Of a stretch of DNA of 33,222 nt, positions 27,329 through 31,795 are shown in pieces. Position numbers and translations under genes: made by a program. Origin of the DNA: an uncultured Ignavibacteriota bacterium (GTDB lineage: Bacteria > Bacteroidota > Ignavibacteria > Tepidaquicellales > Tepidaquicellaceae). Position 1 is the first letter of the stretch; each line of letters begins with the position of its first letter. The stretch is taken from assembly GCA_903831845.1 (NCBI GenBank), contig CAIKZJ010000049.1, positions 1 to 33,222 of the forward strand, given 5' to 3'. The notes under the pieces are model-generated. The model saw only the letters and a program-made list of their open reading frames with translations. It searched no databases and was not told the origin of the DNA.

Positions 27329-28537
27329 TTATTCAACAATTTTTGTAACAACACCTGAACCGACAGTTCTGCCGCCTTCTCTGATGGCGAATCTTAACTT
27401 TTCTTCCATCGCGATGGGGGCAATAAGGTCGATCTTAAGACCGTCGAGGTTATCGCCGGGCATTACCATCTGAACGCCTTCGGGCAATGTTACGACACCC
27501 GTTACGTCAGTCGTTCTGAAATAGAACTGAGGTCTGTAGTTGTTGGAGAACGGTGTATGACGTCCGCCTTCTTCTTTCGACAGAACGTAGACCTGAGCTT
27601 CGAATTTCGTGTGAGGTGTAACGGAACCCGTCTTGGCGAGAACCATTCCTCTTTCGATTTCCTTCTTGTCAACGCCTCTTAACAGAAGACCGCAGTTGAA
27701 TCCCGCGACCGCTTCGTTAAGAGTTTTGTTGAACATTTCAGCTCCTGTTACGACTGTTTTCTTGTGAGCGCCGAGACCGATAAGTTCAACTTCGTCTCCG
27801 ACTTTCACTTTTCCTCTTTCGACTCTTCCGGTCGCTACTGTACCGCGTCCCGTGATAGAGAACACGTCTTCAACCGACATAAGGAACGGCTTGTCAGTTT
27901 CGCGCGCAGGCTCGGGAATGTACGAGTCAACCGCGTCCATGAGTTCCCAGATGCATTTAAGTCTGTCGTCTTCGATACCGATTGATTCGTCAAGACCGGC
28001 TTCCATGGCCTTTAACGCCGAACCTCTGATGATAGGAATATCGTCGCCCGGGAAATCGTACTTCGAAAGAAGCTCTCTGATTTCCATTTCGACGAGTTCG
28101 AGTAACTCGGGATCCGCCGCGTCAACTTTGTTGAGGAATACGACCATTGCGGGTACACCTACCTGACGTGCAAGAAGGATGTGCTCTCTGGTCTGCGGCA
28201 TGGGACCGTCTGTTGCAGCAACTACAAGAATGGCACCGTCCATCTGTGCGGCACCGGTAATCATGTTCTTTACGTAGTCAGCGTGTCCGGGACAGTCGAC
28301 GTGCGCGTAGTGTCTCTTTTCAGTCTGATACTCTACGTGCGCGGTCGCAATCGTGATACCTCTTGCTTTTTCTTCAGGTGCCTTGTCAATTTCGTCGAAT
28401 TTCTTAACTTTTGCTGAGCCTTTTCTGGCTAAGCACATTGTGATGGCAGCGGTTAACGTGGTTTTGCCGTGGTCAACGTGCCCGATGGTTCCGATATTAA
28501 CGTGTGGTTTTGACACGTCATATGTTTCTTTTGCCAT
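27329..28537 (-). CDS. tuf: Elongation factor Tu
   Basis: This 402-aa GTPase delivers aminoacyl-tRNA to the ribosome. G1 is GHVDHGKT at 19-26, G3 is DCPGHADY at 81-88, and G4 is NKVD at 136-139, each intact. Domains 2 and 3 follow with [17 protein letters not shown] in the usual place, ending near [21 protein letters not shown] Shine-Dalgarno (AGGAG) lies about 8 bases before the ATG. It lies after the tRNA gene in the fusA-tuf interval. A second tuf gene, common in bacteria, would lie outside the window. Confidence 0.98.
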
Positions 28538-28589: not shown

Positions 28590-28663
28590 TGGGTCAGGGA
28601 GGAATTGAACCTCCCACCTCGTGCTTATAAGGCACGCGCTCTAACCAACTGAGCTACTGACCC
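28590..28663 (-). tRNA. tRNA-Ile, anticodon UAU
   Basis: This 74-base gene folds into a full cloverleaf: acceptor stem GGGTCAG/CTGACCC, D stem GCTC/GAGC, anticodon stem CGTGC/GCACG, T stem GGAGG/CCTCC with loop TTCAATT, and discriminator A73. The seven-base anticodon loop reads CTTATAA, so the anticodon is TAT (bases 28627-28629 on the top strand). This reads AUA, isoleucine; tRNA-Ile(GAU) would have CTGATAA here. No CCA is encoded (the sequence goes on CAA). It lies between fusA and tuf in the same direction, so it is probably cut from the operon transcript. UAU isoleucine tRNAs are rare in bacteria, which usually modify a CAU tRNA to lysidine. Function as tRNA-Ile is inferred from anticodon and fold. 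Confidence 0.93.
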
Positions 28664-28799
28664 AATCTTGTCCTTCCGGACGGAAACCTTACACAATCCG
28701 CGGAGTCGTGTTACGGTTTTATAGAGCGTTTTTTCGTGTCTGATTCACGAGTTCTGTCCCCGCTGTTAACGGCGGGGCTGACCCAAACTTATTAAAGAA
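28664..28799 (-). other. fusA-tRNA spacer with hairpins
   Basis: This 136-base spacer has no gene. Just past the fusA stop a CCCCGC, TGTTAACG, GCGGGG hairpin (28758-28777) is seen, and a TCGTG/CACGA stem follows. The 13 bases at 28778-28790 match those at 28657-28669 (the 5' edge of the tRNA and its upstream flank) with one change. No T-run follows the hairpins, so readthrough into the tRNA and tuf seems likely. Confidence 0.55.
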
Positions 28800-30887
28800 C
28801 TATCTTCTCTTGCCTGTATAATTTTCGATTATCTTTTCAGAAACCGATTTCGGAGCTTCGTCGTAATGCGAGAACTGCATCGTGTAAATAGCGCGTCCCT
28901 GAGTCATCGAACGGAGCTGCGTCGCGTAGCCGAACATTTCGGACAGCGGCACCATCGACCTGATAACCTGCGCGTCGCTTCTCTGCATCATTCCTTCGAT
29001 TCGTCCCCTTCTCGAACTGAGGTCGCCCATTACGTCGCCCATGTAATCGTCGGGCGTCACCACTTCTACGTCCATGATAGGCTCGAGAAGAACCGGATCG
29101 GCTTTCCTCGCCGCATCCTTGAACGCCATCGAACCGGCAATCTTGAATGCCATTTCCGAAGAGTCGACATCGTGATAAGAACCGTCGTACAGAGTCGCCT
29201 TGATATCCTCGACCGGATAGCCGGCGAGCACGCCGTTCTTCATAGCTTCTTCGATTCCCTTTTCGACCGGGGTAATGTATTCCTTCGGAATCACGCCGCC
29301 GACAATCTTGTTCTCGAACACAAATCCTTTTCCCTTTTCATTCGGTTCAACCTCAATCCATACATGTCCGAACTGTCCTTTACCGCCCGACTGTCTGACG
29401 AACTTGCCTTCCTGTTTGACTTTCTTGCGTATCGTTTCTTTGTACGCCACCTGCGGCTTGCCGACGTTGGCGTCAACCTTGAATTCTCTTTTCAGTCTGT
29501 CGACGATGATCTCAAGATGAAGCTCGCCCATACCTGCAATGAGGGTCTGGCCTGTTTCTTCATCCGAGCTGACCTTGAATGTTGGGTCTTCGTCCGACAG
29601 TTTCGAAAGCGATTCGCCAAGCTTATCCTGATCGGCTTTCGTCTTGGGCTCAATCGCGATCTGAATTACCGGCTCGGGGAACGTCATCTTCTCAAGAATG
29701 ATAGGATCGTTTTCCGAACAAAGCGTATCGCCTGTCTTAGTGTTCTTAAGACCGACTGCCGCGGCAATATCGCCGCTGAAAACTTCTTTTATATCTTCCC
29801 TGTGATTCGCGTGCATCTGAAGAATTCTTCCGAGACGCTCTTTCTTTCCGGTTATCGGGTTAAAAATATAGCTTCCGGCTTCCGCTTTACCGGAATAAAC
29901 CCTGAAGAAGCAGAGTTTGCCGACATACGGGTCCGTCATGATCTTGAACGCGAGAGCTGTAAACTCTTCATCGTCCGAAATCTTTCTTACTATATGATCG
30001 TCCTTATGAACGTGGTGACCCATAATTTCCTTAAGGTCGTTCGGCGTAGGCAGAAGGTCGACAATCATGTCGAGCAGATTCTGCACGCCCTTGTTCTTGA
30101 ACGAAGAACCGCAGAGCACGGGAATAATCTTCACCTGAATCGTCGCCTGTCTCAACACTGCAAGAATTTCCTTTTCGGAAATTTCCTTGCCTTCGAGGAA
30201 TTTCTCAAGCAGCGTATCGTCAACGTCAGATACCGCTTCAAGCAGTTTCTGCCTGTATTCGTTCGCCTGGTTCTTCATTGACGCGGGTATATCGATATCC
30301 TCGAACGTCGCGCCGAGAGTGTCCTCGTTGAACATCCTGGCTTTCATCGAGATAAGATCGATGATTCCCTTGAACATATCGCCCTGACCTACTGGGATAG
30401 AAATGGGAACCGCGTTAGCTTTAAGCCTGTCCTTCATCATCTGCACGGCGTTGAAGAAATCCGCTCCCACCCTGTCCATCTTGTTCACGAAAGCTATTCT
30501 CGGAACGTTGTACTTATCGGCCTGACGCCATACGGTTTCCGACTGCGGCTCAACGCCTCCGACGGCGCAGAAGAGAGCGACCGCTCCGTCAAGAACACGC
30601 AGCGAGCGTTCGACTTCGGCCGTAAAGTCGACGTGACCCGGCGTGTCGATAATGTTTATTCTGTGGTCTCTCCAGAAACAAGTTGTTGCGGCCGAGGTTA
30701 TCGTGATACCTCTTTCCTTTTCCTGTTCCATCCAGTCCATTGTCGCGGCGCCTTCATGCACTTCACCCATGCGGTGCAGTCTTCCGGTATAGTACAGTAT
30801 CCTTTCGGTAGTTGTAGTTTTACCTGCATCGATGTGCGCCATGATGCCTATATTCCTCGTATTTTCTATTGATACCTGTCTCGGCAT
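28800..30887 (-). CDS. fusA: Elongation factor G
   Basis: This 695-aa GTPase drives ribosomal translocation. G1 is AHIDAGKTT at 17-25, G3 is DTPGHVDF at 81-88, and G4 is NKMD, all intact. Further domains are recognisable ([18 protein letters not shown] in domain III, then [18 protein letters not shown] in domain IV). The length matches the family. It stands between rpsG and the tRNA gene, in the usual str order. Confidence 0.98.
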
Positions 30888-30914: not shown

Positions 30915-31382
30915 TTACCATTTAAAATGCGCGAATGCCTTGTTCGCTTCAGCCATTCTGTGAACATCCTCTTTTTTCTTCACAGAACTTCCTTCGCCGA
31001 CTGACGCGGCCATTAATTCGTTCGCGAGCCTTAAAGACATTGTCTTCTCGCCTCTTGCGGACGAATAAGTAAGTATCCATTTAATCGCGAGCGCGACTCT
31101 TCTGTCAGGCCGGACTTCAGTCGGGATCTGATAGTTCGAACCGCCGACTCTGCGCGAACGGACTTCTATTGAAGGCATTACGTTGTTTATAGCCTTGTTG
31201 AAAACTTCAAGAGGATTGCTCTTTGTTTTTTCCTCGATTATGTCAAAAGCACTGTACATAATGCGCTGGGCAACCAATTTTCTGCCCTCTTTCATGATAG
31301 AATTTATGAATCTTCCGACCAGGACGTCATTATACCTGAAATCAGGGATTCTGATTCTCTTCTCTGCTCTTTTTCTTCTCAT
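30915..31382 (-). CDS. rpsG: 30S ribosomal protein S7
   Basis: This 155-aa protein nucleates assembly of the 30S head and, in E. coli, is the str operon autoregulator. Recognisable parts are the N-terminal basic patch (MRRKRAEKR), FINSIMKEGRKLVAQRIMY, and VGGSNYQIPTEVRPDRR. The length is normal. It lies 27 bases before fusA and after rpsL. Confidence 0.97.
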   Translation of the reverse strand: MRRKRAEKRIRIPDFRYNDVLVGRFINSIMKEGRKLVAQRIMYSAFDIIEEKTKSNPLEVFNKAINNVMPSIEVRSRRVGGSNYQIPTEVRPDRRVALAIKWILTYSSARGEKTMSLRLANELMAASVGEGSSVKKKEDVHRMAEANKAFAHFKW

Positions 31383-31408: not shown

Positions 31409-31795
31409 CTACTTTGCTACGGATTCTTTTGCCTTTTTGGCACCGTATTTAGATCTAGACTTCTTTCTGTTGGCGACGCCAGCGGTATCGATTGCACCAC
31501 GAATGATGTGATACCTAACGCCCGGAAGGTCTTTTACTCTTCCGCCCCGGATTAATACTATGGAGTGTTCTTGCAGATTGTGACCTTCGCCCGGAATGTA
31601 AGCTGTGACTTCGATTCCGTTGGTCAATCTAACTCTGGCTACTTTCCTCAACGCAGAATTCGGCTTCTTAGGTGTGGTGGTATATACGCGCGTACATACA
31701 CCTCTCTTCTGCGGGCATGAATCCATCGCAGGAGCTTTGCTCTTGTAAACCTTGTCCTTGCGTCCTTTACGAACTAATTGATTAATTGTTGGCAA
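31409..31795 (-). CDS. rpsL: 30S ribosomal protein S12
   Basis: This 128-aa protein is part of the decoding centre. It begins [12 protein letters not shown] and contains [17 protein letters not shown] and [18 protein letters not shown]43 and K88, where substitutions give streptomycin resistance in other species, are both the ancestral lysine, so the allele looks wild-type. It is the first gene of the str operon, 27 bases before rpsG and with a promoter-like site 40 bases upstream. Confidence 0.97.

Follow-up and report, generated by a model that had tools for sequence, protein, structure and literature searches.

A directly encoded tRNA-Ile(UAU) between fusA and tuf and the putative TilS-free reading of AUA in an order of Ignavibacteria

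The lysidine synthetase TilS is usually taken to be a drug target that nearly all bacteria possess and cannot do without. A tRNA-Ile gene with the anticodon UAU in the str operon of an Ignavibacteria genome raises the question of how AUA codons are read in this lineage, and the initial annotation had suggested that they may be decoded either without TilS or by both routes. Our analyses support the first alternative, and we hold it to be very probable that the whole order reads AUA by its directly encoded tRNA-Ile(UAU) and without TilS, with a change at residue 738 of the isoleucyl-tRNA synthetase (IleRS) that we infer to be the charging adaptation; this reading is drawn from sequence comparisons, without any biochemistry.

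The window, i.e., the whole analysed stretch of 33,222 nucleotides, forms contig 49 of a MAG of 3.2 Mb (94% complete, 470 contigs), and the closest relative among the genomes compared, G001, has fusA and tuf genes that are 95% and 99% identical to those of the window. In all counts, order and class follow the kinship labels that the search tool assigns. The order was represented by 44 genomes of 2.2–4.6 Mb from 19 genera and two families, and the class by 293 genomes that are at least 90% complete, 37 of them inside and 256 outside the order. Two relatives recur below: G028 is the complete single chromosome of Ignavibacteria bacterium Ch128a (CP054675.1), of which 2.0 of 2.4 Mb were scanned, and G029 consists of two contigs and is 100% complete.

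The tRNA gene and its place in the str operon

ARAGORN predicted a tRNA-Ile(tat) at c[28589,28663], the sole tRNA gene of the window, with the anticodon loop CTTATAA on the minus strand, and the Rfam tRNA family RF00005 matched positions 28590–28663 of the same strand over its full length with 74.6 bits (gathering score 29, E 8.9e-15). The gene was thus rightly annotated as a complete tRNA with a UAU anticodon, and this full-length match led us to reject the possibility of a pseudogene. A sequencing error at base 28629 could likewise be rejected, as seven other family members (G001–G004, G009, G019, G023) carry the same 74-mer unaltered; versions with 89–99% identity are found in nearly all remaining genomes of the order. 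The gene is about equally similar to tRNA-Val(UAC), tRNA-Ile(GAU), and tRNA-Ile2(CAU), with values of 0.75–0.83, and its origin therefore remains unresolved.

The tRNA gene follows fusA after 136 bp and precedes tuf by 52 bp, all on the same strand (Table 1). Its annotated place between these genes held up when the fusA–tuf gap was compared, as the order fusA–tRNA–tuf is kept in every examined relative that has both flanks on a contig. Such a site is not without precedent, since tRNA genes also precede tufB in E. coli. A leader between fusA and the tRNA is kept through the order and comprises a boxA-like GTTCTTTAA (28792–28800), GGGTCAG (28778–28784), a variable hairpin (28758–28777), AACTCGTgaATCAGACAC, and CTCTATAAAA; across the order, it also includes AACTCGT..ATCAGACAC. 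The hairpin shows compensatory changes, and five of the eight predicted pairs have them, but the overall consensus energy is weak, and no Rfam family matched the leader, which is possibly an antitermination or regulatory RNA. The place of the tRNA gene between fusA and tuf, with a conserved leader ahead of it, suggests joint expression with the translation machinery, and a tie of tRNA-Ile(UAU) to translation capacity is plausible, although both are inferred, the latter from position only.

Table 1. Features of the window around the tRNA-Ile(UAU) gene
Feature	Position	Strand	Basis
tuf, elongation factor Tu, 402 aa, downstream neighbour	27329..28537	-	ORF; conserved order
tRNA-Ile gene, anticodon UAU, without encoded CCA	28590..28663	-	ARAGORN; RF00005, 74.6 bits; identical in 7 other genomes
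Anticodon UAU, U34 = base 28629	28627..28629	-	Sequence; ARAGORN anticodon (tat) at position 35 of the 75-base call
Leader between fusA and the tRNA, kept through the order	28717..28800	-	Comparison across the order (relatives L042-L070, L304-L311)
fusA, elongation factor G, 695 aa, upstream neighbour in the str operon	28800..30887	-	ORF; order fusA-tRNA-tuf kept in relatives
rpsG (S7), str operon	30915..31382	-	ORF, assigned from sequence
rpsL (S12), str operon	31409..31795	-	ORF, assigned from sequence

Four relatives, G022 (L387), G030 (L388), G032 (L389), and G043 (L385), carry truncated tRNA-like repeats between the UAU tRNA and tuf, in which the T-arm and the 3' half of the acceptor are kept and a GC-rich REP-like hairpin replaces the anticodon arm. 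A small ORF resembling GIY-YIG nucleases lies directly upstream in G022, G030, and G032, and the arrangement looks like a mobile element aimed at that tRNA.

TilS, CAU tRNAs, and AUA usage

TilS was detected in none of the 44 genomes of the order. In the class sample, it was present in 248 of the 256 genomes outside the order (97%) and in 0 of the 37 inside. The TilS N-domain model gave only weak matches below the cut-off in the genome from which the window derives, and these could be discarded as a hidden TilS because they correspond to GuaA, to MnmA, and to a protein resembling sugar amidotransferases; tblastn with four TilS proteins of neighbours against 2.0 Mb of CP054675.1 found nothing below E 0.1. 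The exact pattern of the UAU tRNA showed the opposite distribution, occurring in 33 of the 37 genomes of the order and in none of the 256 others. Two of the four genomes missed by the pattern, G014 and G042, do carry the tRNA, with changes in the T-arm. No intact UAU tRNA was found in G008, G034, G040, and G043, which is probably due to assembly gaps. The eight genomes outside the order that lack TilS also look like assembly gaps, since none has the UAU pattern and all six whose IleRS was read have kept the tryptophan discussed below.

The MAG of the window has an incomplete tRNA set, in which neither fMet nor GAU was found, and the absence of tRNA-Ile2(CAU) therefore rests on relatives. Among the 41 distinct tRNAs of G029 are Ile(GAU) and Ile(UAU), and its CAU tRNAs number exactly two, fMet and elongator Met. 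G028 and G010 have no other CAU tRNAs than these either, and scanning 2.0 Mb of G028 directly with ARAGORN revealed no third one; an Ile2-like CAU tRNA is present in one genome outside the order. The initial annotation had proposed to list all Ile and CAU tRNAs and to search for tilS genome-wide, and the outcome is an order without TilS and two near-complete relatives, G028 and G029, whose tRNA sets lack tRNA-Ile2(CAU). As tRNA-Ile(GAU) is present in seven relatives (G009, G011, G012, G013, G017, G029, G033), AUA is the only codon left for the UAU tRNA to read. In the 2.0 of the 2.4 Mb of G028 that were scanned, no tRNA-Ile(GAU), tRNA-Ala(UGC), 16S motif, or rRNA operon was detected, and whole-genome searches did not yield GAU either.

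AUA was described as a common codon, even in rplW, and the counts agree: it accounts for 97 of the 302 isoleucine codons (32%) in 13 genes of the window, or 23.8 per 1000 codons, with three in rplW, and in Ch128a for 38% of isoleucine codons, or 38.3 per 1000 (761 long ORFs). More than 10 per 1000 has been classed as high use (PMC12514573). With 32–38% of isoleucine codons being AUA, the UAU route must work. Within the operon, tuf has no AUA among its 25 isoleucine codons, and nearby ribosomal protein genes use AUA freely.

UAU isoleucine tRNAs were said to be known in a few bacteria such as Mycoplasma mobile. The occurrence is correct, but "few" cannot be upheld, as a GTDB-wide scan with the UAU pattern returned at least 114 records, mostly of Patescibacteria. 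Among the matches listed, 43 UAU-bearing genomes were analysed for TilS (mostly Patescibacteria, one chlamydia, Bifidobacteriaceae, and others), and TilS passed the cut-off in just one of them, Bifidobacterium pullorum, and not in the other 42. Among the matches listed (L188–L301), tRNA-Ile(UAU) is widespread in Patescibacteria and also occurs in one Planctomycetota-labelled, one Dormiibacterota-labelled, and one reduced Cytophagales MAG.

IleRS residue 738 and the competing explanations

A further aspect, which the initial annotation had not considered, is a matching change that is present in the IleRS sequences. Taniguchi et al. reportedly found the M. mobile IleRS changed at the position of E. 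coli W905. The IleRS of the order is of type 2, i.e., eukaryote-like, with the PF19302 C-terminal domain and without the zinc finger PF06827, and the IleRS of neighbours outside the order is likewise type 2. W905 therefore has no counterpart in either group, as the region is missing from their type 2 enzymes, and an adaptation of the M. mobile type, with Arg at the W905 position in the zinc domain of a type 1 IleRS, is absent here. In a first comparison of 14 sequences from the order with 11 from neighbouring families, one radical change stood out, in that residue 738 is Arg in all 14 and Trp in all 11. It lies in the motif NWYVRRNRxRF-W/R and, by Pfam assignment, in the anticodon-binding domain, which does not imply a contact with base 34. 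The ileS gene of the window's genome (L172:979-4107) also shows GIHH in place of the HIGH motif, a non-canonical form that has been linked to mupirocin hyper-resistance (PMC10485003).

Residue 738 was further tested on sequences outside the set used to find it. Trp is present in 30 of 30 additional class neighbours outside the order, including the six without detected TilS, and in T. thermophilus and Priestia IleRS2, whereas all 25 readable IleRS of other UAU-bearing, TilS-less genomes among the matches listed have Lys, Ala, Gln, or Asp, in Patescibacteria, a chlamydia, and Pseudoscardovia. B. pullorum, which has both TilS and the UAU tRNA, retains Trp, and its TilS-less relative Pseudoscardovia suis has Ala. 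Yeast and human cytosolic IleRS have Lys, as read from PDB chains matched by a 61-residue eukaryote-like probe. When all alignment columns were scanned, only 738 had a residue that is invariant in the TilS-positive rows and that none of the 39 UAU rows shares; at the next-best column, 10 of the 39 share it. These rows are related by descent and may represent four or five independent switches rather than 39, so that a simple Fisher value overstates the support. Columns 503, 648, 652, 822, 834, and 864 are also fixed in the order, but they do not separate the other UAU lineages and were rejected as the switch.

The mechanism that we favour would then be as follows. The tRNA-Ile(UAU) would be the lineage's sole AUA-reading tRNA, and as its anticodon can pair directly with AUA, neither tRNA-Ile2(CAU) nor TilS would be needed; the sequences show that the order has lost both. 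AUU and AUC are left, where this could be read, to the separate tRNA-Ile(GAU), seen in seven relatives. Charging with isoleucine, predicted from sequence alone, would require a type 2 IleRS that accepts U34, and we infer that the loss of Trp738, here to Arg, may permit this: Trp738 may favour lysidine-34 or exclude U34, and Arg, Lys, Ala, or Gln may open the site. As a reading only a little more likely than not, we extend this to residue 738 of IleRS2 as a general gate of bacterial AUA reading, with Trp accompanying lysidine-34 and Arg, Lys, Ala, or Gln accompanying U34, which would have switched several times independently, in Ignavibacteria, Patescibacteria, a chlamydia, and Bifidobacteriaceae; given these independent switches, a single gene would be enough to predict, by this residue, how a genome decodes AUA.

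It has to be asked whether the UAU tRNA could be a mere accessory, with a diverged or unassembled TilS and a tRNA-Ile2(CAU) still doing the main AUA decoding, as in B. pullorum or Lactobacillus plantarum. That B. pullorum carries TilS together with the UAU tRNA shows the combination to exist, L. plantarum has CAU and UAU tRNAs (Tomikawa 2018, cited in PMC9976931), and most of our genomes are MAGs. However, none of the 44 genomes, from 19 genera, has TilS by the same search that finds it in 97% of the neighbours, two near-complete tRNA sets lack Ile2(CAU), and the IleRS of the order lacks the Trp that B. pullorum retains, so that this explanation is largely refuted and we regard it as very improbable. 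Even less credible is a tRNA that does not accept isoleucine, for example a valine tRNA with a drifted anticodon that inserts valine at AUA. Its similarity to the tRNA-Val(UAC) of relatives is indeed as high as to their tRNA-Ile(GAU) (0.79–0.82), but A35, U36, A37, A38, and A73, which are among the isoleucine identity elements of E. coli, all fit isoleucine identity, the IleRS covaries with the presence of the UAU tRNA, and misreading would be massive, as AUA makes up to 38% of isoleucine codons and is used in ribosomal protein genes.

A more serious objection concerns residue 738 itself. The exchange of Trp for Arg, Lys, Ala, or Gln could be lineage drift unrelated to the anticodon. In that case, the tRNA swap would be real, but the adaptation for charging would have to be sought at another place in IleRS, or type 2 enzymes would accept U34 unchanged. 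The further columns fixed in the order and the distance of the Patescibacteria IleRS are compatible with drift, and since 44 of 45 UAU genomes among the matches listed have a type 2 IleRS, the type itself may be permissive. Against this, 738 alone splits all UAU-bearing, TilS-less rows from all TilS-bearing rows, including within Bifidobacteriaceae and between the order and its class, and Lys occupies the site in the eukaryotic IleRS, whose substrates include a UAU tRNA. We consider drift unlikely but cannot dismiss it, and we therefore keep the adaptation of IleRS as an inferred part of TilS-free AUA reading.

Comparison with known AUA-reading systems

The open-licence literature contained no mention of Ignavibacteria or of the IleRS2 Trp in the context of AUA decoding. 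The replacement of the lysidine route by a UAU tRNA is already known from M. mobile, some Bifidobacterium, and Neorickettsia; what is new is that an order with genomes of ordinary size has fixed it, and that IleRS2 carries a switch residue, the function of which we infer. An entire order in which AUA encodes about one third of the isoleucines has dropped TilS, and the same solution is widespread in Patescibacteria among the matches listed. With the covarying residue, the question of the Ile/Met codon box can be put to an experiment on one residue of ordinary enzymes, such as the IleRS2 of T. thermophilus or Priestia, and the residue may serve as a marker for mapping AUA decoding over the bacterial tree.

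The U34 of the M. mobile tRNA-Ile(UAU) is unmodified, and Fabret et al. are said to have described in 2011 a bacterial UAU tRNA replacing tRNA-Ile2(CAU). M. mobile combines the UAU anticodon with the loss of TilS, and its IleRS had to change for the swap (Taniguchi et al. 2013, summarised in PMC4014445 and PMC4013482); the replacement is also known in hemoplasmas (PMC4014445). The order resembles M. mobile in the encoded UAU, the absent TilS, and the altered IleRS, with acceptance of U34 only inferred here, but M. mobile, a reduced parasite, has a type 1 IleRS, whereas the order has genomes of ordinary size and a type 2 IleRS in which another Trp covaries. Surveys list tRNA-Ile3(UAU) in 17 bacterial genomes, including some Bifidobacterium, Mycoplasma, and Neorickettsia (tRNAscan-SE 2.0; PMC8450103), and a UAU tRNA-Ile in 19 species in tRNADB-CE (PMC4013482). 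In these genera, too, the UAU tRNA replaces tRNA-Ile2(CAU), but unlike in the 17-genome set it is here fixed across an entire order at a constant place between fusA and tuf. L. plantarum is a free-living bacterium with a UAU tRNA-Ile (Tomikawa 2018; Uesugi 2022, cited in PMC9976931), which coexists there with the CAU tRNA, whereas the CAU route is absent from the order. The system of TilS and tRNA-Ile2(k2C-AU), which likewise solves the discrimination of AUA from AUG, is the one that the order lacks. The eukaryotic UAU anticodon is pseudouridylated. In its components, the eukaryotic cytosolic system is akin to that of the order, as it also has a tRNA-Ile(UAU), a homologous type 2 IleRS, and a residue other than Trp, namely Lys, at the switch site.
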